A DNA stretch of 49,064 bases, taken from Campylobacteraceae bacterium (GTDB lineage: Bacteria; Campylobacterota; Campylobacteria; Campylobacterales; Sulfurovaceae). Position 1 is the stretch's first letter, and every line of letters starts with the position of its first letter. The stretch is from contig JALVXC010000065.1 of NCBI GenBank assembly GCA_027038275.1, forward strand, positions 1-49,064, written 5' to 3'. Below the pieces are notes generated by a model. It was given only the letters and a program-made list of their open reading frames with translations. It did not search any database and had not been told where the DNA came from. This document shows, piece after piece, positions 22,632 through 46,509 of this stretch. A program made the position numbers and the translations under genes.

Positions 22632-23993
22632 ATGTTAATTAGATTAATAGTAAACAATATTCTATCTTTTGGTAAAGAGCAAGAGTTTAATATGTTGCCT
22701 ATGCCAAGACTTAGAACTTTAAAAGAGCATAAATACAATATTGATGGTTTTGATATTTTAAAAATGGCTTCAATCTATGGTGCAAATGGAGCAGGTAAAT
22801 CAAATTTAGTAAAATCTATGATAATACTTGAAGATTTAATTGTAGATGAGATGCCTCTAATTAACTTTTCAAAAAATAAAAGATTTAAATTTTCAGATGA
22901 AAATGAACCTCAAACTTTTATTATTGAATTTGTTCAAGAGGGAAAAGCTTTTTTATATGGTTTAGAGATTTTGAACAATATTGTTACAACGGAAGAGCTT
23001 TATCTCTCTGGATTAGGAAAAAAAGATAATAAGTTACTGTTTGAACGAACAACAGATAAAGATAGCAAAAAAATTATATTTAAAACACCTCTATTAGAAG
23101 ATGAAGAGGGGAAAATTTTAATAAAAGTTATAGAGAAAAACCTTGCAAAACCCAACAAAACAATTTTTAAACTCTTAACTACACTTGATAAACCTGAACT
23201 AAAAGAGATTGAAACTGCACTAAATTGGTTTAAAAATAGTTTAGTCATTGTAACACCTGATGCAAAACCATCTGCTTTAGTTCATAAGATAGATACCAAT
23301 AGTAATTTTAAAATTTTTACCGAAGACTTAATGAAATCTTTTCATATCGGTATCAATAGAGTTGAAGTAGAGAAAAAAACTTTAAAAGAGTTTTTTGGAG
23401 AAAATGATTTAAAAAAATTAGACAAAATAATAGAAGAGTTAGATAGCTCTAAAAATAAAATGATTGGACTTCAAATCAATGGAAATCAAGAGGTCATTAT
23501 TGCTAGAGAGCATGATGATATATATGTTAAAAAACTTCAAGTTTCTCATATAGGAAAAGATAATAAAGAGGTAATGTTTGATTTAGATGAAGAGTCTGAT
23601 GGAACAATTAGACTGTTAGATTTTGCTCCTGCTTTTCAAGATATTGCTATGAATAGAAAAGTCTATATAATTGATGAGATTGAGAGAAGTATTCATCCAC
23701 TTCTTATCAAAGAACTCATTAGTAAATTTTCAAAAGATAATCAATCAAATGGACAACTTATCTTTACAACACATGAATCCAACCTATTAGACCAATCTAT
23801 CTTTAGACAAGATGAAATTTGGTTTGCCGAAAAAGATAAAAGTGGTTCTACAGATTTATACTCTCTTAGTGACTACAAGGAACACAATACCATTGATATT
23901 AGAAAAGGGTATCTTTTAGGAAGATATGGCTCTATCCCTTTTCTTGGTAATTTAAAAGATTTAAATTGGCATGATTATGAGATTGAAAAATAG
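22632..23993 (+). CDS. rloA: RloA-like AAA (OLD/SMC-type) ATPase
   Basis: The protein starts MLIRLIVNNILSFGKEQEF and has an ABC/SMC-type P-loop, YGANGAGKSNLVKS (residues 49-62). Late motifs include SDGTIRLLDFAP and VYIIDEIERSIHPLL (Walker B, about 342-356), then LIFTTHESNLLDQ (H-loop). This is the AAA_15/AAA_21 fold of abortive-infection ATPases. It overlaps the next gene, an RloB homologue; rloA and rloB are known beside restriction loci in Campylobacter. By analogy to PARIS and OLD/Gabija-type pairs, the ATPase may control a Toprim effector in phage defence. The start is ATG 22632 with AAAAAGG upstream. It has its own promoter region (22523-22631). Confidence 0.88.
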   Translation: MLIRLIVNNILSFGKEQEFNMLPMPRLRTLKEHKYNIDGFDILKMASIYGANGAGKSNLVKSMIILEDLIVDEMPLINFSKNKRFKFSDENEPQTFIIEFVQEGKAFLYGLEILNNIVTTEELYLSGLGKKDNKLLFERTTDKDSKKIIFKTPLLEDEEGKILIKVIEKNLAKPNKTIFKLLTTLDKPELKEIETALNWFKNSLVIVTPDAKPSALVHKIDTNSNFKIFTEDLMKSFHIGINRVEVEKKTLKEFFGENDLKKLDKIIEELDSSKNKMIGLQINGNQEVIIAREHDDIYVKKLQVSHIGKDNKEVMFDLDEESDGTIRLLDFAPAFQDIAMNRKVYIIDEIERSIHPLLIKELISKFSKDNQSNGQLIFTTHESNLLDQSIFRQDEIWFAEKDKSGSTDLYSLSDYKEHNTIDIRKGYLLGRYGSIPFLGNLKDLNWHDYEIEK

Positions 23994-24642
23994 AAATCTT
24001 TTATATACAAGAGAAGAACCCACAAAAGATGCTAAACTTATTATTATCTATTGTGAGGGCAAAAAGAGAGAGAAAGATTACTTTAACTACTTTTCAGAGA
24101 TAAGCTCCAAGATAAGATTAGAAGTAGAAGCACCATCTCAACACGATAATAACTCTCCTAGTGGATTATTTCAAAAAGTTATTAGTCACACTATCAAATC
24201 CAAAGAGAATCCAAATCCAAAATATAATATTGATGATGAGATTTGGATAGTTTTTGATACAGATAAGTGGGGAGAACAGATTAATACAGTAAGAGAAGAG
24301 TCTAAAGAGTATAGTTGGAATATAGCTCAAAGTAATCCATGCTTTGAAGTTTGGTTGTTTTATCATCTCTTTGAATTTGAAGAGTTTGAAGGAATGGAGA
24401 ATCCAAATAGATGGAAAACATTTCTAAATAAAAAAATATCAGGTGGCTTTAGCAGTAAAAAACACCCAATTTTTGTTAAAACAGCAATAGAAAATGCAAA
24501 AAAAGTGTTTAATGAAAGTATAACTATTGGCTCAACAGAAGTATATAAGTTAGCAGAGAGTTTTTATCCTTACGTGTCTGATAAGATTGAAGAGGCACTA
24601 AAAAATCATATTAATAACTCTAGCGTTATTAAAGAAGAGTAA
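23971..24642 (+). CDS. rloB: RloB-like Toprim-fold protein
   Basis: After a short N-terminus the protein shows LIIIYCEGKKREKDYFNYF (Toprim-like acidic CEGK, about residues 23-41), DEIWIVFDTDKW (acidic DxD strand, about 87-98) and NPCFEVWLFYHL, the arrangement of RloB proteins. These are believed to be nuclease-type partners of RloA ATPases; the substrate is not known. ATG 23971 overlaps rloA by 23 nt; a second ATG at 23977 is equally possible. The last codons (HINNSSVIKEE) are written over an exact copy of the 22-bp plasmid palindrome, so the module is embedded in the backbone control system rather than freshly inserted. Confidence 0.85.
   Translation: MIMRLKNRNLLYTREEPTKDAKLIIIYCEGKKREKDYFNYFSEISSKIRLEVEAPSQHDNNSPSGLFQKVISHTIKSKENPNPKYNIDDEIWIVFDTDKWGEQINTVREESKEYSWNIAQSNPCFEVWLFYHLFEFEEFEGMENPNRWKTFLNKKISGGFSSKKHPIFVKTAIENAKKVFNESITIGSTEVYKLAESFYPYVSDKIEEALKNHINNSSVIKEE
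24611..24632 (+). promoter_or_regulatory. 22-bp dispersed palindrome, copy 8, inside the rloB C-terminus
   Basis: An exact 22-bp match that encodes INNSSVI near the C-terminal end of rloB, ending 10 nt before the end of the stop codon. Confidence 0.75.
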
Positions 24643-35945: not shown

Positions 35946-38435
35946 TCAAATTAATAAATCAATATTTTTAATACATATCCAATAATTTTTTTTATTTATC
36001 TTAAATGTATTTAATATATGCTCAGGGGAATCAAAATTATCTAAAATATAGCTACCAATACTATATTGATTACTATCTACAATATTTCTAGCTTCATAAA
36101 ATAATTCTTGATTATTAAAAAGTAAGCTTTTATTATAGAGAATTGCTGCTTTCGCATAATATTTTTGATATTTATCTGCTGTATATAATGCTATTTCAAA
36201 AAGTCTCTTCGCATTATCTATATTTCCCCTAGAAACTTCCATTATGGCTTGATTATTAAAATAATAACATTTCACTTCCATATTTATGAAATTTACTCTC
36301 TCTTCAATCTCTTCATTTTCTACAGATACTTTATGATAAACCATATAATTACTATGAATAACTTCAATCATACTTTCATCAAAGATTGACTGCTCATTTC
36401 TTAATACCTTTTCATATATGGGTGCTAAGATATTTTTTGCTTTTTTATAATCTCCTTTAGAGAAATAATAAATAGAAAGAGTATTACTCACTATGTAAAT
36501 TTTCACCTGATTAGGATAACCTTGGTATATTTCTATAGAACTATTTAAATACTGTTCTGCCTTTTCAAAGTTTTTTAAATCATCCACATAAACTCTACCT
36601 ATTGTATAGTAAAAATAAGCTGTTTGCATCTCATTAAAATCATTATTTTCCAGATACTTATTAATTACTTCTATAGCCTGATTCCATTTTGAATCACCTT
36701 TACTCATAGATATATAATTTAAAATATCATCAAATTCTGCATAATTTTCATTTATTAAAAATTCAATTATTTCAAACGAAACTTCCCTACTATTAAAATA
36801 GTAGAAATTTTTATACAACTCTTGAATGAAAATATGATGAGTTGTATTGTATTTAGAAAATATCCAATTTAATATTTGTTCTATTCCCTCTTCATCATCC
36901 ACAAAGTAATCTTCACTACATTGTTCTTCATCGATAAGCCAATCATAAAGTGTTTTATGAAAAAACTCTACTTTCTCATTATTTATATAAATTAATGAAC
37001 CTATAGAATCTTTTACTCTCTTCATCTTTTTTTTATTCCAACCCAATATCTCTCTTAAATATTTTAAAGGTAAAGAGGTCCTAGTTGCAACCATGAGTTG
37101 AAAAACTTTTTCTTGATTCTCTTCATACTCTTTAATATCTGGGAATTGTCTTAGAAAATACTGTTCATAAACCCCACTTAACTCATTTGGAAAAGTATCA
37201 ATCTCTTCAACAGATACACTACCATTCTTGATTGCAGAAAGTACCTCATTAATATAAAGCATATTATTTTGACTTTTCTTCACAAGCACTCTCAGCATAT
37301 TACTTTCAATATCCCCTAACTCTTTAGTAATTATTTTTTCTATATCTTTACTATTTGCATCCGTATCTCTTGTATCAAGTACCATAGGAGAAAACTTTGA
37401 TAATGCTATTTTTAAATTAGGTTCAGGTCTACTGACAATAAGTAGTCTCAACCATTTAGGTAGTTTTTCAAACTCATTAGCTATTAAATGGATAATTCCA
37501 AATTTTTCATCTTCAATCTCATCTAAACCATCAATTATATAAATATGATTATTTGGGGGAACTTCAATTTTATTCATAGGTTCAAGAATTATTTTTTGAA
37601 AAAAATCTTTAAGATTCTTAGAATACTTTTGATATTCATCATTACTTATTTTTTCAATTTCTCTTTTATAATTTGGTAATTGTGTTGACATATGATATGC
37701 AAATGTTTTTATAAGTTCTAGTGGACTTCTTCTTAAGACACTATCATATTGACAGAAAAAAACACCTGCAATATTTGGTAATATATGAATAGCATTCGCA
37801 ACTATAGCTGTCTTTCCATACCCTGCTTTAGCTGTAATCCATAATACTGATGAAGCTTTAGAATCGTTTAACCAAGTTAAAATTTTACTATATATCCATT
37901 CTCTTCCTATAAATTTTTTAGTTTGTTTTACAATATCCAAATCAAAGTTTTGAGGTTCTAATAACTTAACTAAAGAATGATTTGAACTCGTTTCAATTAA
38001 CTTATTATTTTCCTCTAAAATAGCTATCAACTTTTGTAAATAAATTTGATATAACTCCTCATTAAACTCATCAGCATCTTTATCCCAAATATTTATCATA
38101 TCTATCCATTGTAAACGACAAATTGATAATGGAGGGGTAACCATTTCTAACATAACAGGAATAATTGGCTTATTTTCTAAAATTGCATAAGAAATTTCAT
38201 TAAGACAAAATCCATTAGGTCTTCTAACAGCATGTTCTGTCATGAAAAATACAACTTCATCATTTGATGATAAAGCATCTTCTAACATATGCTCCCAATC
38301 AGATTTTATTCTTATATTCTCTGTATCTAACCAAACTTGAAAACCTTTGCTTTCTAAATCATCTTTAATTCGCATAATAAAATCAACATACTTTTGAGGT
38401 TTTCTTCCATATGATATAAAAATTTTTTTCTTCAT
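35946..38435 (-). CDS. TIR-STAND NTPase-TPR protein (bacterial NLR-like immune receptor)
   Basis: The TIR domain (residues 1-140) begins KIFISYGRKPQKYVDF and has LSSNDEVVFFMTEH and CLNEISYAI, with Glu80 at the NADase position. A NACHT/STAND NTPase follows: GREWIYSKILTWL, WITAKAGYGKTAIVANA (P-loop about 200-215), HIYIIDGLDEIEDE (Walker B near residue 315) and LLIVSRPEPNL (sensor). A winged-helix-like segment (LPLKYLREILGW) and a TPR-type repeat region (about 590-830) complete it. Such proteins detect a phage component through the repeats and then use TIR to destroy NAD+ or make a signal. The start is ATG 38433-38435 with AGGAG. It is followed by the homoserine-kinase-like gene. Confidence 0.9.
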   Translation of the reverse strand: MKKKIFISYGRKPQKYVDFIMRIKDDLESKGFQVWLDTENIRIKSDWEHMLEDALSSNDEVVFFMTEHAVRRPNGFCLNEISYAILENKPIIPVMLEMVTPPLSICRLQWIDMINIWDKDADEFNEELYQIYLQKLIAILEENNKLIETSSNHSLVKLLEPQNFDLDIVKQTKKFIGREWIYSKILTWLNDSKASSVLWITAKAGYGKTAIVANAIHILPNIAGVFFCQYDSVLRRSPLELIKTFAYHMSTQLPNYKREIEKISNDEYQKYSKNLKDFFQKIILEPMNKIEVPPNNHIYIIDGLDEIEDEKFGIIHLIANEFEKLPKWLRLLIVSRPEPNLKIALSKFSPMVLDTRDTDANSKDIEKIITKELGDIESNMLRVLVKKSQNNMLYINEVLSAIKNGSVSVEEIDTFPNELSGVYEQYFLRQFPDIKEYEENQEKVFQLMVATRTSLPLKYLREILGWNKKKMKRVKDSIGSLIYINNEKVEFFHKTLYDWLIDEEQCSEDYFVDDEEGIEQILNWIFSKYNTTHHIFIQELYKNFYYFNSREVSFEIIEFLINENYAEFDDILNYISMSKGDSKWNQAIEVINKYLENNDFNEMQTAYFYYTIGRVYVDDLKNFEKAEQYLNSSIEIYQGYPNQVKIYIVSNTLSIYYFSKGDYKKAKNILAPIYEKVLRNEQSIFDESMIEVIHSNYMVYHKVSVENEEIEERVNFINMEVKCYYFNNQAIMEVSRGNIDNAKRLFEIALYTADKYQKYYAKAAILYNKSLLFNNQELFYEARNIVDSNQYSIGSYILDNFDSPEHILNTFKINKKNYWICIKNIDLLI

Positions 38436-38485
38436 TTCTAAAACTCCTAATTAGATTTTTTTAAGTGGTCTTGACAATGGGGTAC

Positions 38486-38515
38486 ATTATACATCTCTAT
38501 GAGAATAGCTAATAA
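38486..38515 (-). promoter_or_regulatory. Likely promoter of the TIR-STAND operon
   Basis: On the minus strand TTATTA (38510-38515) and TATAAT (38486-38491) are separated by 18 bp, about 50 bp upstream of the ATG, in the gap after the RyR-domain gene. Confidence 0.55.
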
Positions 38516-38540
38516 ACGCTTTATAGTTTCTCTCTTTCAT

Positions 38541-40367
38541 CTACCCCTCCACAATCTCAAACCCACCCCGAGCCAAATATTCAGGGATATAATAGACCGA
38601 ATCCATGTCATACTTATAGGTTTTTTTAATAGTATCATTATCAAAATTCTCTAAAGGCAGTAAACAATAATGCTCTTTAGCATCTTTATTCTTTTGACTA
38701 CTATAATCCCAACCATTTAGATATTGGAAAGCACACCAACGATTGTGTTCTGACCTTGCTACTTTGTCAAAAAGTGTCTCAAATGAAGTTGGAAAATCAT
38801 CAACCTTATAGTTTTTAAATCTTGCTTCTATTGTGTTAATATCTTCTAGTTTACTATTAAATCGCTCTCTATTTAGCTTTAAAAGCTCTTCTAGTCTTTT
38901 TTCTGCTTTTACTCTTTTGAGACCAAAAGCCAAAAGTTTAATATCCATATGTATCGCTTGGGTTTTGTTAGTATCTTGTTCATGTGGCGTAATATCTAAC
39001 CAATGTTCATTTAATTTTTTTTGAACAACATCTTTCTCTCCCTGATAATCATTATGAATCAACTTAGCTATCAAATCGAGCTTTTCATCAATCAAAATCT
39101 CTTTAGTCGAAGTCGTTCTAATATTTCCAAAGGAGTAAAAGTTCTTAAAAGCTTGATTATCTTTGTCTATCTCTTCACCTAATCCTAAATTGTGTTCTAA
39201 TGCAAAAAGAACTTTGGTATTAAACCTATTATGACCAATATCTTTGATATAGGTGGTATCTTGCAGATTGATTGCAATATCAAGATTTTTCTCCTCATTA
39301 GTTGTGGCAATTAGAACATTAGTCAAATTATCACTGTGCCAAATAGGGTCTTCATAAAACTCCAAAGTCTCACTATCAATATCTTTAGCACTGATAGTTA
39401 GATGAGGAATCTTGTCTATCTTAGGAAAGAGTTTTCTGATTCTATCTCGAAATTTTGTAGAGTTTTCACCTATAAAATGTAGATTTAGCCTATTTTGATT
39501 GGGAAGTGTAGAGAGAAATGAGATATGATAAACAAGTTCAACAGCCAAATCAGAATCACCAACTAAGATTATATTAAAGTCTTCATCCGTCTTAATAATA
39601 TTGGTCATATTTCCTAAAATAGTATGTTCTAAAAAGAGTTTTTTTACCATATTTTCATATAGAGAGTAGGTTACAATATTTACATGCTTATCTTTCTCTT
39701 TTCCAATTACATCTTGCTTAAAAAGCACATTCAAATCTCGATTTTGAATACAGACATGAACCGTTTGATTTTTATCTTCACTATTTTCAATTTTACTCAT
39801 AAGAAACTTACCTAAAGCAATGTTTTTTCTATCATTTCCTGTAGAGATAATACACCTCTCCATCTTATCTAAATCAAGACTTTCAATAGCACCTTTAGTA
39901 TTGTACTCACTTATCGTAGCAAAATCTTTCTCTTGAAAATACTCTAAATAGGTGTTGTTTCTATCTTTTTCTATAATAATTGTAGATTCTTTGTCCTGTT
40001 CATTTTTTAAGAAACTAACATTCTGTTCACTCAATCCTACTATCAAGGTATAGCTATCTCTCTGTATAGCCTTTATATGCCACTTATTAAAATATTTTGA
40101 GAAAAACATAATAAAAAAACCAAATGAAAAAGTTGCAATACCTAAAAATCTAGCAATATCTAAAAGCCAATAAGTATCATCATTCCACTCTGCTACAAAA
40201 AGTCCTAAAGTATTATTGATACTACCTAAAAATGAAGAAGTACCAACATTAAGGAAACCAATTAGACCAAAAAAAATGGTTGCAGATATTAGATATTTTA
40301 GTATCTTTTCTCTGTTCTTTTTTAAATTATATGGTTGGATTTTTTTGTAACTTAGTAGGCTTATCAT
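38541..40367 (-). CDS. Membrane TrkA-N-like protein with C-terminal RyR domain
   Basis: Two or more N-terminal membrane segments (about residues 24-47 and 66-90) are followed by two Rossmann-like regions, YTLIVGLSEQNVSFLKN (about 106) and FNIILVGDSDLAVELVYH (about 263), resembling the regulatory nucleotide-binding part of K+ transport proteins. The last 75 residues (SEHNRWCAFQYLNGWDY, then CLLPLENF and YIPEYLARGGFEIV) fit the bacterial RyR domain, thought to sense nucleotides. Proteins with this combination appear in predicted conflict systems. It lacks a P-loop or nuclease. The start is ATG with AAGGGA. It reads toward the TIR-STAND operon, which has its own promoter, so it may or may not be part of the same system. 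Confidence 0.78.
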   Translation of the reverse strand: MISLLSYKKIQPYNLKKNREKILKYLISATIFFGLIGFLNVGTSSFLGSINNTLGLFVAEWNDDTYWLLDIARFLGIATFSFGFFIMFFSKYFNKWHIKAIQRDSYTLIVGLSEQNVSFLKNEQDKESTIIIEKDRNNTYLEYFQEKDFATISEYNTKGAIESLDLDKMERCIISTGNDRKNIALGKFLMSKIENSEDKNQTVHVCIQNRDLNVLFKQDVIGKEKDKHVNIVTYSLYENMVKKLFLEHTILGNMTNIIKTDEDFNIILVGDSDLAVELVYHISFLSTLPNQNRLNLHFIGENSTKFRDRIRKLFPKIDKIPHLTISAKDIDSETLEFYEDPIWHSDNLTNVLIATTNEEKNLDIAINLQDTTYIKDIGHNRFNTKVLFALEHNLGLGEEIDKDNQAFKNFYSFGNIRTTSTKEILIDEKLDLIAKLIHNDYQGEKDVVQKKLNEHWLDITPHEQDTNKTQAIHMDIKLLAFGLKRVKAEKRLEELLKLNRERFNSKLEDINTIEARFKNYKVDDFPTSFETLFDKVARSEHNRWCAFQYLNGWDYSSQKNKDAKEHYCLLPLENFDNDTIKKTYKYDMDSVYYIPEYLARGGFEIVEG

Positions 40368-40437: not shown

Positions 40438-40460
40438 TTCTCCAAAAAATCTAAAAAAGA
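40438..40460 (+). repeat. Promoter-region repeat, copy 1
   Basis: TTCTCCAAAAAATC followed by an A-rich end also occurs at 40841-40863, each about 40 bp upstream of a plus-strand gene start. It could be a shared operator or an ancestral duplication. Confidence 0.45.
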
Positions 40461-40496: not shown

Positions 40497-40802
40497 ATGA
40501 ACAGATACACTACAAGACATGGAAGAAAACGGCTAAGACAACGTTTAGGCTTAAAGAAAAAAGCTCATGCTCGACATATACAAAAAGTTTTAAGAGATGG
40601 GCTTGTTGAGTATAGAGATATGGAGAAAAAGATTCTTTATGTTTGGTATGACTGCCACAAATATATCTTTTCTAACTACAAAAACTTGGAAGCTCGTTTA
40701 ATTACAGTTTTTCCAAGAGACAAGAAACAGTCTCTCTCTAATCATAGAAATCATCTAACACCTTTCTCATTGATGAAGCTAGATGAGTCTCGAAGTGCAT
40801 AG
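40497..40802 (+). CDS. Small basic hypothetical protein (101 aa)
   Basis: The ATG at 40497-40499 is preceded by AAGGA with a six-nt spacer; a TTG two codons earlier is weaker. The protein begins MNRYTTRHGRKRLRQRLGLKKKAHARH, very basic, and then has KILYVWYDCHKYIFSNYKNLEARLITVFP, a beta-rich half. This resembles a widespread family of about 100-residue proteins of unknown function with RHARKRxxxRLG near the start, which look like compact ribonuclease-toxin (RelE/BECR-type) folds; that is a guess from pattern. It stands alone, divergent from the RyR gene, and is followed by a palindromic AT-rich hairpin. Confidence 0.55.
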   Translation: MNRYTTRHGRKRLRQRLGLKKKAHARHIQKVLRDGLVEYRDMEKKILYVWYDCHKYIFSNYKNLEARLITVFPRDKKQSLSNHRNHLTPFSLMKLDESRSA

Positions 40803-40815
40803 GCATTTTAAATTC

Positions 40816-40855
40816 TATTTTTTTGGAAGAAAATATATTTTTCTCCAAAAAATCC
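40816..40855. terminator. AT-rich palindrome, terminator or operator
   Basis: TTTTTTGG and CCAAAAAA arms enclose GAAAA/TTTTTC arms around TATA, spanning most of the gap between two plus-strand genes. It could terminate the first or control the second; its right arm overlaps the repeat at 40841-40863. Confidence 0.45.
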
Positions 40856-40863
40856 AAAAAGAG
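40841..40863 (+). repeat. Promoter-region repeat, copy 2
   Basis: A near-identical partner of 40438-40460, ahead of the first gene of the envelope operon. Confidence 0.45.
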
Positions 40864-40905: not shown

Positions 40906-41334
40906 ATGAAGAGAAAAATTCTGATGAGTTTAGTTATGTTTGGGTGTTTAAACCCTTTGTTTGCAAATGATACTGTAGATTGGGATAAAGAAGAACAGCT
41001 TGAAACTCAATTAAAACAGAAAGAAGAGATGTTGAAAAAGCAACAGATAAAAAGCAAAATGTTATTAACTGAAGCTATTGTAATAGCTCAGGATACTATT
41101 GATAGTTTAGAGAAAAACCTTGAATTTTTTCAAAAAATTCAATCTAGCAAAGAGTATCGAGAGTGTACGATAATCAAAACATATATTGAAAACATCAATA
41201 AAGATAGAAATATTGCTGACGAATTGTATCAAGAGAAAGAGGTAACAAAAAAGCAATATACCATTTATATATCAAAATTGAATGCAACTCAACAATCTCT
41301 ACAAAACAAAATAGACCAAAAAAAATGTAAATAA
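40906..41334 (+). CDS. Secreted coiled-coil protein, first gene of envelope operon
   Basis: A signal peptide (MKRKILMSLVMFGCLNPLFA) is followed by a charged helical mature protein of about 122 residues (EEQLETQLKQKEEMLKKQQIKSK) with two cysteines (REC and KKC at the end) that could form a disulphide. No family is recognised. ACGAAAGG precedes the ATG. Ten nt separate it from the next gene; six plus-strand genes to 44542 are packed this way and are read here as one operon. Confidence 0.65.
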   Translation: MKRKILMSLVMFGCLNPLFANDTVDWDKEEQLETQLKQKEEMLKKQQIKSKMLLTEAIVIAQDTIDSLEKNLEFFQKIQSSKEYRECTIIKTYIENINKDRNIADELYQEKEVTKKQYTIYISKLNATQQSLQNKIDQKKCK

Positions 41335-41344
41335 GGAGCAAAAG

Positions 41345-41845
41345 ATGAAAAGAGTAATTTTAGTAACAGCAATAACATTAATAGGAAGTTCAAGTCTCTA
41401 TGCTAAAGAGATTCCAACTAACCCAAAAACACCATCTACTAATCAATCTAAAAGAGCAAAGATAGAAGTTATAGAAGCCAAAATTAAAAAATATGAAGAG
41501 TATTTAAAAAATTTACCAATTAAAACAAAACAGGCAATTGCAGAGCTTTCTGGTTATAAAGACAAAGGAAATGAAGCTGAACGCATGACAAAAGACCTTC
41601 TTGTAACCTTAGATATGTGTGCTACAAATGAACTTAACGAAATGGCTGCTTCTGCTTGTAATGATATAAATGAGGAAGATGTTTCTGTAACAATTAAAAC
41701 TTATCAAGCAGAAATAGAAGATATGATTGCAATGGCAACAAAAAAATTAGAAGATTTGAAAATAGATAAAAAAAATGCACCTATTATTGAACGGGCAAAA
41801 AAAGCATTAGAAAATGCTAGAGATATTTTGAAAGGAGTAAAATAG
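41345..41845 (+). CDS. Secreted helical protein
   Basis: A signal peptide (MKRVILVTAITLIGSSSLYA) is followed by a helical, Lys/Glu-rich mature part (VIEAKIKKYEEYLKNL) with a pair of cysteines (MCATNE and SACND) about 17 residues apart. AAGGAG lies before the ATG. Size, signal peptide and helical character match the preceding protein, so the two may be distant paralogues or partners in the periplasm. The function is unknown. Confidence 0.65.
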   Translation: MKRVILVTAITLIGSSSLYAKEIPTNPKTPSTNQSKRAKIEVIEAKIKKYEEYLKNLPIKTKQAIAELSGYKDKGNEAERMTKDLLVTLDMCATNELNEMAASACNDINEEDVSVTIKTYQAEIEDMIAMATKKLEDLKIDKKNAPIIERAKKALENARDILKGVK

Positions 41846-41847
41846 TC

Positions 41848-42747
41848 ATGAAAAAAATAATTTTAACATTAGGACTAATCGGCTCTCTCTATGCAAATAA
41901 CTCTCTCTCTTGTGAGAGTATGAGTGAAAAGGAGTTTCATCAAAAACTATTAGAATATAAAAAGAGTATTGATATAAGTAAATTTCAAAATCCTAAAAAT
42001 ATCAATGATACCAACAGAGAACAGATGCAACAGCATGTAAAACAAGTCTCCTTTAATGGAAACACATTAAAGCAGTGTCAATTAATTTTAGATATACGAA
42101 GATACCCTGCAAATGATGGAAGACGCTATAAAGCACTATTGTCATTAAATTATGACTCTTTAAGCAAAGCAGAAAAGAAATTATATAATACTGTTTTACA
42201 AGAATCAAAAGGAAACTTTTTCAATTATAGTAGAGCTTCTGTTATATCTAAAGATATGGTAAACTACCCTCTTGTCTATTTAACAATGACTAACTCTACT
42301 ATTTATGAGTTTAGAGAGATAAATCATAAAGTTAAGCGTTATAAAGTAGCTACAGATATGGTTAATATTCCTTTTAAAGCAGGAGGTATACAGGCAAAAC
42401 AAGCATATATTTCCTATTTAAATAATAATCATAATAGTAACTTTACATTACCAAGAGTAAAAAATAATATTGATGAATTACAAAATAAAGTAAGAGCAAA
42501 TACTAGGAAATTTCATCATAATCATGATATACAACTAAGTCCATTCAGAATAGTAACAAAAGATTTAAAAAATGTAAAATCTTTTAAGAAATATAATAAA
42601 AAGGTCCTTAAAAGAACTATTCCTAGAGGTGCTCAAATCAAATATTTACATCAACGTGGAAACACTAGTGATTGTGTTATTTCATATGACAATAAACAAT
42701 GGACCATTTCAGAAAAGCAGTGGCATGATAGCATAGGAGGTTTATAA
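41848..42747 (+). CDS. Secreted protein of unknown function (299 aa)
   Basis: A signal peptide (MKKIILTLGLIGSLYA) is followed by a mature part with several cysteines (LSCESM, LKQCQLI, SDCVIS). An N-terminal helical region leads to a long basic central part (NINTT-free, rich in N/K/H) and a final beta-like stretch (RTIPRGAQIKYLH, NKQWTISEKQWH) that may be a small SH3-like fold. It is separated by 2 nt from the previous gene and 2 nt from the next. No family is recognised. Confidence 0.6.
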   Translation: MKKIILTLGLIGSLYANNSLSCESMSEKEFHQKLLEYKKSIDISKFQNPKNINDTNREQMQQHVKQVSFNGNTLKQCQLILDIRRYPANDGRRYKALLSLNYDSLSKAEKKLYNTVLQESKGNFFNYSRASVISKDMVNYPLVYLTMTNSTIYEFREINHKVKRYKVATDMVNIPFKAGGIQAKQAYISYLNNNHNSNFTLPRVKNNIDELQNKVRANTRKFHHNHDIQLSPFRIVTKDLKNVKSFKKYNKKVLKRTIPRGAQIKYLHQRGNTSDCVISYDNKQWTISEKQWHDSIGGL

Positions 42748-42749
42748 TT

Positions 42750-43406
42750 ATGAAAAAAATAGTACTATTGAGCTTATTAGCTCTATCTTTAGAGGCAAAA
42801 ATACTAACTAGTGAAGAGAATTTTCATCATGCACAAAAAGATTTATATGCTAAACAAAAAATTATTAATCAGGGAGTAAAGAGGAATGTTTATGAGATTT
42901 TAGATAGTTATAAAAATAATCCAAAAGCAAGACTTTTAAAAAAATGGTTCAAGATTGCTTCACAAGTGACCTACAATAGTTCACTTGGAGCTTTTATAGA
43001 AAAAACAACTATTAAAGCAAAATCAATAACCACACAACTAATATTTTTAGAAAAAGGAGCAATGAGTAATAATGACAAAAATGTTTTATTGAGTAAATAT
43101 AATTTCTTAAGCAAATTTAAAACATATAATAGACCTTTAAATAAAAAACTTTTTGTTTACGCAAAAGATGACAAAGGTAAAAGTGGTAATCTTTTTTTAA
43201 GAACTATGCCAATTCTTGATAAATCTACAATCAAGAGAGATAGTAATGGAAATTTTATAACATTAAGAGATAAAAGTATGGTAATATTGTTACATGAAAT
43301 TTCATTTGAAATTGGTAGTTATACGACACATTGGGGATATATTGAATCTCCTGCTGATGGTAGAATTGGTTGGATTAATCTAAAAAATACAAAGGAGAAG
43401 AGATGA
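42750..43406 (+). CDS. Secreted protein with C-terminal SH3-like domain
   Basis: A short signal peptide (MKKIVLLSLLALSLEA) is followed by a helical N-terminal half (HAQKDLYAKQKIINQGVKRN). The last 85 residues (LFLRTMPILDKSTIKRD, VILLHEISFEIG, HWGYIESPADGRIGWINLKN) look like a bacterial SH3 domain, with the typical GWI ending. Such domains bind peptidoglycan or protein partners in the periplasm. It overlaps the TolQ-like gene by 4 nt (ATGA), so the two are translationally coupled. Confidence 0.65.
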   Translation: MKKIVLLSLLALSLEAKILTSEENFHHAQKDLYAKQKIINQGVKRNVYEILDSYKNNPKARLLKKWFKIASQVTYNSSLGAFIEKTTIKAKSITTQLIFLEKGAMSNNDKNVLLSKYNFLSKFKTYNRPLNKKLFVYAKDDKGKSGNLFLRTMPILDKSTIKRDSNGNFITLRDKSMVILLHEISFEIGSYTTHWGYIESPADGRIGWINLKNTKEKR

Positions 43407-44047
43407 AGTTAAATATATTAGGCAGAGTGGTATTATATCTCTCTGTTGCTACAATATTTTTTCTTAGTTTTGTTAACTTAGTTCAATTCCCTAGCCATAA
43501 AAAAGATGAAGTTTCAACAACAAATATTACTATAAGTACTGTTCAGAAGATTGAAAAGAACCGTAAAGAAAATGTTCGTAATAGTATGCAGAATAAAAAG
43601 AAAGAGATAAAAGAAATAAACTTTTTAGAGAAACTACCTAAAATAGTATTTTTTGACTATATCTCTTCTAAAAATAGTCGTATTATAGTCTTAATTTACC
43701 TCTCTATAGCCTTTACTTTTTTATTGCAAACGACACTTCTTGCTTTGAGTAACTATTATGATGATTTATTGATATTTGGAGAAAAAAGAGTTGATAATAT
43801 GTTCATATATATCTCTGAGTGGACGGTCAATGTACCACCTGTGCTTGGTGTTGTTGGAACAATATTCTCTTTTGGTATAGTAGTTAGTCATAGCGATATA
43901 GGTAATCTTAGTATTGTTTTTAAAGAGAATTTTGCAAATGCTGCATTAACTACCATCTTAGGTGGAGTTGTCTATATTTTAAATCTATTACTAAATATTT
44001 TTATTGTAAAAAATCTTTCTACTAGTAGAGTCATCAAGGGGGAATAG
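43403..44047 (+). CDS. MotA/TolQ/ExbB-like proton-channel protein
   Basis: The 214-residue membrane protein has a first hydrophobic segment (about 8-29), a second (about 96-118) and two late ones around VPPVLGVVGTIFSFGIVVS and FANAALTTILGGVVYILNLLLNIFIV. The GTIFSFG and ALTTILGG patterns match the pore helices of TolQ/ExbB/MotA proteins, which conduct protons with a TolR/ExbD/MotB partner to drive work across the envelope. The partner is encoded immediately downstream. The stop and the next ATG touch (TAGATG). What the motor drives is unknown; the four secreted proteins upstream are candidates. Confidence 0.75.
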   Translation: MKLNILGRVVLYLSVATIFFLSFVNLVQFPSHKKDEVSTTNITISTVQKIEKNRKENVRNSMQNKKKEIKEINFLEKLPKIVFFDYISSKNSRIIVLIYLSIAFTFLLQTTLLALSNYYDDLLIFGEKRVDNMFIYISEWTVNVPPVLGVVGTIFSFGIVVSHSDIGNLSIVFKENFANAALTTILGGVVYILNLLLNIFIVKNLSTSRVIKGE

Positions 44048-44542
44048 ATGAAAAAATTTTCTGCTCCTCCTATGATTATTATTTTAGATGTTCTATTTGT
44101 AGTACTCTTTATACTTGTTTTAGAGCAGTCTCCAAATATTAAAGTAGAACTACCTCAAAAAGTTTGGTTAAAAGATACAATTGTAGTTGATGATAAAATA
44201 GAATATTTTTTTAATGATTCAAAACAAAAATGGGAAAATCTTAATAAACTTCCAAAAAGAACTCGTATCTATGATAATATAATCGTTTTAAATACTCTTT
44301 GCGAAAAGAATCAATTTTGTAAGAAGGTAACACCGTATAAAGGTAAAATTAAAAAAATTGCAATTAAAGGAGATTTATATGATGAAATATCTTCATTAAT
44401 GACCGATTCTTGCTTTACATTTCCAAAAGAGTGTTCCAATGTAACATATCATATAAAAGATAATGGAAGAGTTGATAGAGAGAGACTCAAAAATGAATTT
44501 CCTATTTTTAAAGATATATTATTAGAAGATAATAAACACTAA
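44048..44542 (+). CDS. TolR/ExbD-like single-pass stator protein
   Basis: The protein begins MKKFSAPPMIIILDVLFVVLFILVLEQSPNIKVELP, a membrane helix with Asp14 at the place of the proton-carrying Asp of TolR/ExbD/MotB. A periplasmic domain of about 125 residues follows with three or four cysteines (LCEKNQFCKK, DSCF, KECSN). It is directly coupled to the TolQ-like gene. The C-terminal domain is not clearly an OmpA-type peptidoglycan binder, which separates it from MotB and from ZorB of Zorya. It is the last gene of the operon. Confidence 0.75.
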   Translation: MKKFSAPPMIIILDVLFVVLFILVLEQSPNIKVELPQKVWLKDTIVVDDKIEYFFNDSKQKWENLNKLPKRTRIYDNIIVLNTLCEKNQFCKKVTPYKGKIKKIAIKGDLYDEISSLMTDSCFTFPKECSNVTYHIKDNGRVDRERLKNEFPIFKDILLEDNKH

Positions 44543-44585: not shown

Positions 44586-44594
44586 TGCTATACT
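44586..44594 (+). promoter_or_regulatory. Extended -10 promoter of the second TIR gene
   Basis: TGCTATACT is an extended -10 element 28 bp upstream of the ATG, after a 43-bp gap from the envelope operon, so the TIR gene is probably transcribed on its own as well. Confidence 0.5.
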
Positions 44595-44622
44595 AAATCC
44601 ACCTAAAAGAGGGGATTTAGTA

Positions 44623-45853: not shown

Positions 45854-46099
45854 ATGTATTCCGTTAAATTAGATATAAACCCTTTAATCTATGAGCATAT
45901 TATGTTTTTTTTAAGAAATCTTCCAAAAAATATGGTTACGGTTCATACCAATAAAATTAATAAAGAGTTAAAAACTAAAATTGATATTGATAATTTGCCC
46001 TCTTCGGTTGATAAATATGTGGGTATTGTCAATGAAAATGAGGTTGATTTGGACTATAAAAATAGCAGAGCAGACTATTTAGCAGAGAAGTATCTATGA
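45854..46099 (+). CDS. VapB-like antitoxin
   Basis: The 81-residue protein precedes and overlaps a PIN-domain toxin gene by 4 nt (ATGA), the usual antitoxin-toxin arrangement. AAAGGA lies upstream. The N-terminus (MYSVKLDINPLIYEHIMFFLRNL) has the look of a small dimerising or ribbon-helix-helix segment, and the acidic C-terminal half (VNENEVDLDYKNSRADYLAEKYL) should wrap the toxin. The assignment rests mainly on context. Confidence 0.65.
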   Translation: MYSVKLDINPLIYEHIMFFLRNLPKNMVTVHTNKINKELKTKIDIDNLPSSVDKYVGIVNENEVDLDYKNSRADYLAEKYL

Positions 46100-46509
46100 A
46101 AGTTTTTGTAGATACCAATATTTTTATAGATATTTTGCTCAATCGAAAAGAGTTTATAAAAGAGTCAAAACAGGTTTATAAGCTTTGTGAAAACCATATT
46201 GTCAAAGGTTATGTTGCTCCTATTAGTATTAATAATATCTATTATATCTGCCGAAAAGCAGTTAACCAAGAGGCTTTAACCTCTTTTTTATGTGATGTAT
46301 CTCATATTTTCACCATATCGCCAATGAACAATGAGAGTGTGGTATTTGCAAAAAATCTAAATATTAAAGATTTTGAAGATGCTTTACAATCTGCTATGGC
46401 GATTCAGAGTGGTTGTGATTGTATTGTCACAAGAAATGTAGATGATTTTAAAAAAGTAGCAGGTATAGAAGTGTTTAGTCCTAAAGAATTTTTATTGAAA
46501 TTTCAATAA
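46096..46509 (+). CDS. PIN-domain toxin (VapC-like ribonuclease)
   Basis: The protein begins MKVFVDTNIFIDILLNR with the first PIN aspartate at residue 6. It continues with ISINNIYYICRKA, IKDFEDALQSAMA (central acidic residues) and CIVTRNVDDFKK (final Asp), the complete PIN acidic pocket. VapC toxins cut tRNA or rRNA when not bound by VapB. The length of 137 aa is typical. It is coupled to the antitoxin gene by a 4-nt overlap. Confidence 0.85.
   Translation: MKVFVDTNIFIDILLNRKEFIKESKQVYKLCENHIVKGYVAPISINNIYYICRKAVNQEALTSFLCDVSHIFTISPMNNESVVFAKNLNIKDFEDALQSAMAIQSGCDCIVTRNVDDFKKVAGIEVFSPKEFLLKFQ

Follow-up and report, generated by a model that had tools for sequence, protein, structure and literature searches.

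Motors of the 5:2 type driven by the proton-motive force (PMF) power flagella, gliding, outer-membrane stability, nutrient uptake and one defence system. According to the accessible text of a 2025 survey, more PMF-driven 5:2 motor systems remain to be discovered (PMC12204202). Here we describe a six-gene envelope operon at positions 40906-44542 of a contig from a Campylobacteraceae bacterium (family Sulfurovaceae; assembly GCA_027038275.1, contig JALVXC010000065.1, C65 in our numbering). The stretch analysed, hereafter the window, is this entire contig of 49,064 bases, which belongs to an assembly of 2.54 Mb in 188 contigs that is 97% complete. We propose, with a probability of about 0.62, that the operon is an accessory, horizontally moving unit in which genes 5 and 6 encode a small inner-membrane motor of the 5:2 type (TolQR/ExbBD/MotAB), driven by ions, and genes 1-4 its four dedicated periplasmic partners. 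If this is true, the operon adds a 5:2 motor whose partners are new, whose motor subunit is unusually small and whose output is periplasmic, found once as conjugative cargo; it also provides a defined six-gene unit for which nine natural variants exist and a single residue, Asp14, is predicted to be essential.

The flagellar MotAB motor has an OmpA-type domain on its B subunit and a large cytoplasmic domain in MotA, whereas gene 6 has no Pfam match and the inner loop of the gene 5 product comprises about 31 amino acids (aa). The TolQR pair of the Tol-Pal system is alike in its adjacent Q and R genes, in that order, in a single-helix R subunit with a membrane acid, in the Pro-Gly-Thr and Thr-Gly elements of Q and in having periplasmic coiled-coil partners. 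However, the operon has no recognised TolA, TolB or Pal (no Pfam, NCBIfam or PHROGs match to these families in the six proteins; no search was made for split loci in the rest of the genome), its Q-like protein has four predicted helices with a minimal cytoplasmic loop, and the host has a separate TolQR-like pair. ExbBD-TonB shares with the operon a small Q-like subunit and an R-like helix, whose tentative alignment to that of ExbD has the Asp in register, but the operon contains no TonB-like proline-rich anchored protein and the host has its own ExbBD-TonB set; among genes 1-4 we found no TonB-type transducer, their N-terminal signals being of the cleavable type by eye and no such Pfam domain being present. 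As for Zorya, the accessible part of its description reports that it depends on the ZorA tail, on the flow of ions and on ZorB binding to the wall (PMC11890865). ZorAB is alike in being a motor-type pair of patchy distribution, near immune genes in the case of the window, and unlike in its long cytoplasmic tail, its OmpA-type peptidoglycan-binding domain and its ZorC/D/E proteins, all of which the operon lacks, its own partners being periplasmic; the PADLOC Zorya models gave no match to the six proteins at E <= 1. TolQR-like motors with vWA-type partners, whose function is unknown, have also been described (PMC12204202, accessible text); they too combine TolQR-like genes with unexpected periplasmic partners, but Pfam matched no vWA domain in the operon, which has SH3 and coiled-coil partners instead. 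A survey of MotAB homologues also groups others of unknown function, and its accessible text does not contain the term SH3 (PMC12505986).

Furthermore, each of the six Sulfurovaceae genomes that carry the operon contains two to four other ExbB/TolQ/MotA proteins (PF01618). In the genome of the window these include, with names given by sequence reading, a TolQR-like pair beside the ATP synthase genes (locus L045) and ExbBD followed by a TonB-like protein (L044). A MotA-like protein with a coiled-coil, OmpA-ended MotB-like partner lies beside mreB/mreC-like genes (L046:4486-6796). As the host has separate TolQR-like, ExbBD-TonB and MotAB-like genes, the operon is not its Tol, Ton or Mot system. 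MotA-like/MotB-like pairs similar to that of L046, apparently non-flagellar, are also present in four other carriers (L032, L033, L035 and L036).

A conserved six-gene operon in Campylobacterales

The first-pass annotation of the window, which was made from the sequence alone, had described a six-gene operon that did not match the Tol-Pal, TonB-Exb, Mot or Zorya sets. In fact, all six open reading frames (ORFs) are present, head to tail on the plus strand (Table 1), with spacings of 10, 2, 2, -4 and 0 bp and a purine-rich ribosome-binding site directly 5' of every start, and none of those four sets was recognised in library searches of the six proteins. Pfam, NCBIfam, PADLOC and PHROGs offered no convincing family for any of them (lowest E about 0.001, to unrelated or unnamed models), Rfam had no match in the window, and a promoter scan was no better than chance (28 against 33.1 in shuffles).

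The order of exported genes, TolQ-like gene and adjacent TolR-like gene is kept in the window and in eight further Campylobacterales genomes, nine copies in two families. Because the same arrangement recurs in eight further genomes, we regard the six-gene set as a conserved unit. Searched alone against 60 related genomes, the TolQ-like protein of the window found one clear locus, in a genome of the same genus (G009; 40% over 93 aa), where the order is coiled coil, coiled coil, secreted SH3-like, lipoprotein-like, TolQ-like, TolR-like and coiled coil plus SH3-like. With a two-row TolQ-like profile, matches at E <= 0.01 were obtained in 7 of the 175 family genomes, from which the window, G009, G547, G479, G478 and G476 were kept and G010 (E 0.009) was dropped. 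A six-row profile matched four of 398 genomes of the order, namely the window and three genomes of another family (G556, G560 and G563), and the two-row profile gave one match in 397 phylum genomes, a draw that favours high-quality genomes and leaves out most carriers. In all seven loci found by the TolQ-like profiles (four, then three), whose query contained no TolR sequence, a TolR-like gene lies directly downstream. An independent copy in the same order in G009, and then in seven more genomes, makes the gene set more than chance. With a nine-row TolR profile we recovered 6 of 175 family genomes (the same six carriers), three of five in the second family and one in the phylum draw of 397; as the matched sequences themselves built this profile, these counts measure absence elsewhere and not discovery. 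Two weak TolQ-like matches, G010 and G013 (E 0.0011, three internal stops), were dropped and the TolR profile recovered neither. In G479 the end of the contig truncates gene 1; in G476 gene 1 is lost beyond the contig end, as are gene 1 and part of gene 2 in G563.

Outside these genomes, tblastn found no match to the window TolQ-like protein in plasmids (E <= 1), nor to the TolR-like proteins of G560 in plasmids and of G563 in phages (E <= 0.01). None of 17, 181 and 29 pattern stretches in scans of viral contigs was confirmed, and the scan of genome contigs confirmed one among at least 588, evidently the G009 contig itself. The literature searches found no paper describing the six-gene set, which is the sole basis on which we call it undescribed. 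We conclude that the operon is real, conserved and, within the literature searched, undescribed.

Table 1. Genes of the operon and neighbouring features in the window (aa, amino acids)
Feature	Position	Strand	Description
Gene 1	40906-41334	+	Exported, coiled-coil-like, 142 aa; Cys87 and Cys141 in the mature part
Gene 2	41345-41845	+	Exported, coiled-coil-like, 166 aa; Cys 92 and 105
Gene 3	41848-42747	+	Exported, 299 aa, three Cys
Gene 4	42750-43406	+	Exported, 218 aa; C-terminal SH3-type domain (family alignment)
Gene 5	43403-44047	+	TolQ/ExbB/MotA-like membrane protein, 214 aa; four predicted helices, Thr153, Thr184
Gene 6	44048-44542	+	TolR/ExbD-like, 164 aa; one membrane helix with Asp14, periplasmic part
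AbiL-like pair	22632-24642	+	AAA_21 ATPase and RloB pair; PADLOC AbiLi E 3e-78, AbiLii E 2e-25
TIR-STAND-TPR and RyR genes	35946-40367	-	TIR-NPHP3/STAND-TPR protein; just upstream, same strand, membrane protein with weak TrkA_N-like and RyR domains
A-rich stretches	40440-40460, 40843-40863		CTCCAAAAAATC[CT]AAAAA
Small basic ORF	40497-40802		
Inverted repeat	44592-44600, 44613-44621		Perfect 9-bp arms
TIR gene	from 44623		
PIN_3 pair	45854-46509	+	Small protein and PIN_3 protein (E 2.5e-21)

Proposed motor assignment of the membrane pair

The helix of the TolR-like protein has an acid at the motor position in all nine copies (Asp in eight and Glu in G476); in the window this is the membrane Asp noticed in the first-pass annotation, Asp14, which lies inside the helix of gene 6. 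When the TolR-like profile was compared with that of 13 ExbD/TolR relatives, the alignment (P 1.5e-4, probability 51%, 32 columns) placed this Asp in register, while the other pairings gave P values of 0.075 (MotB) and 0.53 (TolQ). A search of the PDB with the TolR-like protein at E <= 10 returned four matches, three of them TolR proteins (E 2.8-5.2), the best one (E 0.29) being labelled TMH4C4.

Eleven residues are invariant in the seven aligned rows of the TolQ-like protein (Q109, P145, L148, G149, V150, T153, T183, T184, G187, N194 and L197), and their P-LG--GT and TT--G motifs have the same spacing as in ExbB and TolQ of the same genomes. Among 401 ORFs of at least 90 aa the pattern P-x-LG-x-x-[GA]T...TT-x-x-G, which was written with the family already in view, is present in 11: eight are TolQ-like proteins of the operon (one a G478 fragment), three come from a genuine ExbB-type locus of G009 (partly duplicate copies from the overlap of two loci), and none lies elsewhere. 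In the accessible text of PMC12905483, Thr148/Thr181 of ExbB, Thr145/Thr178 of TolQ, Asp25 of ExbD and Asp23 of TolR are called essential. The TolQ-like profile was also compared with a MotA set (P 0.0056, over other columns; control 0.23).

Helices were called with a Kyte-Doolittle script. In the four TolQ-like rows with four helices, the first outer loop comprises 46-73 aa, the inner loop 15-31 aa and the second outer loop 20-25 aa, and for the remaining three of the seven rows this simple method called three helices. The window protein, with its inner loop at about 31 aa, has no long C-terminal tail. If the predicted topology is right, the TolQ-like protein has almost no cytoplasmic domain; the ExbB proteins of the carrier genomes are likewise small (144-153 aa).

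Exported partners and proposed periplasmic output

Genes 1-4 start with hydrophobic stretches, called by the same script, that resemble signal peptides by eye, and the coiled-coil label is also a reading of the sequences by eye. The four secreted proteins of the first-pass annotation stand by their N-termini, but the Cys that it had noted in one of them are not confined to gene 3, being present in genes 1 and 2 as well. BLASTP relates genes 1-4 of the window to those of G479 (E 8e-12, 1e-11, 1e-13 and 3e-23) and G478 (E 2e-7, 4e-13, 6e-11 and 1e-19), and of these four it detects gene 4 only in the second family (E 0.002 and 0.004), where the membrane pair is detectable too. After the TolR-like gene of G556 lies a gene for a 607-aa protein that joins regions similar to gene 3 (E 7e-45), gene 2 (1e-5) and gene 1 (5e-12), with TPR repeats between the last two. 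Proteins found fused are usually functional partners.

All nine copies of gene 2, one of them partial, encode exactly two Cys, which suggests from the sequence a periplasmic disulfide. The C-terminal stretch of gene 4 is similar to bacterial SH3 domains, with an R-P...W...GW pattern kept in all seven alignment rows. The SH3-like end that had been proposed is backed by the family alignment and by sub-cut-off matches in G476, but the window protein taken alone matches nothing in Pfam. A PDB profile search for gene 4 returned nothing relevant. Lipobox-like N-termini are present in one protein each of the G009, G547, G560 and G563 variants.

According to the mechanism that we propose, the gene 5 product would form a TolQ-like pentamer that surrounds a TolR-like dimer of the gene 6 product, protons would pass between Asp14 and Thr153/Thr184, and motion would be passed on to the periplasm. 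Two parts may relay the force or change of state, namely the TolR-like domain and the loop of 46-73 aa that is the first on the periplasmic side of the TolQ-like protein; the receivers would be the coiled-coil proteins with their proposed disulfides, which would transmit it, and the SH3 protein, which would hold the peptidoglycan. We infer a periplasmic output because there is almost no predicted cytoplasmic domain, no TolA/TonB-like anchored transducer and no OmpA-type wall-binding domain.

Mobility, neighbours and possible roles

The window carries conjugation genes for VirB4, a VirB11-type ATPase, TrbI/VirB10, a VirD4-type coupling protein and a MobA/VirD2-type relaxase; its ends show no exact terminal overlap that would indicate a circular contig. 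In the TolR-like tree the window copy joins G479 and G478, of another genus (support 99/98), and not its genus mate G009, which joins G547 of a third genus (100/100). Both transfer and ancient subtypes fit this tree, and we favour transfer, which appears the more probable because of the patchy distribution and the conjugative contig. A conjugative element was seen with only one of the nine copies.

Several of our results weigh against the operon being a motor unit of the kind proposed. PF01618 does not match the gene 5 protein of the window, the TolQ-like profile aligns weakly to that of ExbB and TolQ (P 0.0099), its PDB profile search returned an unrelated receptor only, and the TolR-like profile match extends over no more than the helix and the following strand. 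Nor does a predicted fold back the assignment, as both AlphaFold monomer models are too poor to use (mean pLDDT 35.8 and 43.9). The SH3_3 matches in two G476 proteins (22.4 and 20.7 bits; E 1.4e-4 and 4.7e-4) fall below the cut-off of 27, and several carrier assemblies are drafts and partly contaminated. Two of the nine copies have a broken TolQ-like frame near T-rich tracts (L014:8792-9384 and L043:6858-7432), which may reflect assembly error, decay or switching, and no neighbour is common to all loci. The weak profile statistics and unusable models would fit genes 5 and 6 being small membrane proteins of chance resemblance, in an operon that forms a passive periplasmic scaffold. However, motor signature residues are among the TolQ-like invariants, the acid of the TolR-like helix is never missing, and the adjacent Q-then-R order is that of the Tol and Exb operons of the same genome, and we consider the scaffold improbable. 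A diverged Tol-Pal or Exb system with an ordinary housekeeping job would explain the TolQ/TolR-like pair, and in two genomes a coiled-coil protein follows it and a lipoprotein-like gene lies alongside. This explanation is strongly disfavoured by the patchy distribution (6 of 175 genomes) and by the separate ExbB/TolQ/MotA proteins of each of the six Sulfurovaceae carriers, and no relative of TolA, TolB, Pal or TonB was recognised in the operon. The first-pass annotation had named a chromosomal variant Tol-Pal or Exb system of known role as the case against its reading; in other genomes, G009 for example, the operon does lie between housekeeping genes, but not as a known system, and the six Sulfurovaceae carriers searched all encode further ExbB/TolQ/MotA proteins.

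For the accessory motor operon that we favour, the likeliest role is in the envelope and conditional, with the genes carried as cargo, and anti-phage defence, by sensing or blocking passage through the envelope, is a leading candidate, though below even odds. As the first-pass annotation had noted, the operon of the window lies next to a TIR gene in an immunity-type island, the defence-rich cargo of a conjugative element, which also holds an AbiL-like pair, a TIR-STAND-TPR gene, a RyR/TrkA channel-like gene and the PIN-type pair. In other carriers, the genes immediately upstream, on the operon strand, code for a caspase (PF00656, E 9e-31) and a DUF4384 protein (G560; gaps of 83 and 132 bp), a TPR protein, cut by the contig end, is divergent from the operon (G547), and a D12 methyltransferase and Rha (G556) or KilA-N (G563) are found close by. 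These neighbours would suit a Zorya-like machine whose motor, or whose SH3 and coiled-coil partners, sense phage damage to the envelope and signal to, or pair with, TIR, caspase or TPR proteins. However, the loci share no effector, the operon has no cytoplasmic tail or effector gene of the Zorya kind, and with 13 caspases in about 2.2 Mb of G560 simple arithmetic puts a chance neighbour at a few per cent, with many neighbours examined; such a machine is a possible but tentative reading. The G009 copy lies between aspS/adk-like and NAD kinase/recN-like genes, the G478 copy beside an aminotransferase and the G479 copy beside sbcCD-like genes, which also speaks against it. Since copies lie between housekeeping genes and caspases are common, we put defence forward as a plausible candidate and not as a finding, and with no neighbour common to all loci its link to the operon is a weak association. 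Unlikely as a whole, to our judgement, is the more specific proposal of a mobile immune machine, a proton-driven 5:2-type motor shed of its cytoplasmic domain and acting from the periplasmic side, in which the SH3 wall-binding subunit and the disulfide-stapled coiled coils would detect or resist phage passage, with different cell-death proteins in each genome. A non-phage envelope function is quite possible, although the odds are against it too. It could be the energised assembly of a surface structure, or its export or anchoring; it could also be an additional tether for the outer membrane, or be related to conjugation or contact. The four exported partners, the lipobox-like N-termini and the chromosomal settings in several genomes are consistent with such a function, as are the surface processes powered by other 5:2 motors (PMC12204202, accessible text). 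Nevertheless, the surroundings of the operon in the loci read include no recurrent gene for a secretion channel, an adhesin, an outer-membrane barrel or glycans, and the conjugative element accompanies a single copy.

Three neighbours were considered as parts of the system. The TIR gene starts 80 bp downstream of the operon, behind a short inverted repeat that ends just before its start and is a possible operator or terminator; it is probably outside the operon, because of this spacing and repeat and because it is absent beside the other copies read, and a seventh operon gene is not supported. The caspase as a fixed partner is unsupported, as caspases are common in carriers (13 matches in G560). 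The convergent neighbour of G009 and G547 (L004:12374-13180) is rejected: 22 of the 175 family genomes contain it, often more than once, and the operon is present in just three of these 22.

Other features of the window are listed in Table 1. The TIR-STAND-TPR gene and the membrane protein gene just upstream of it have the look of a pair for TIR signalling, in which the RyR-bearing protein would be the channel-like effector; RyR proteins have been linked to ADP-ribose (ADPR) immune signals in the accessible text of a preprint (PMC13232231). The small protein and PIN_3 protein resemble a toxin-antitoxin pair. Finally, the two similar A-rich stretches lie 5' of the small basic ORF and of the operon, and could be a shared control site.

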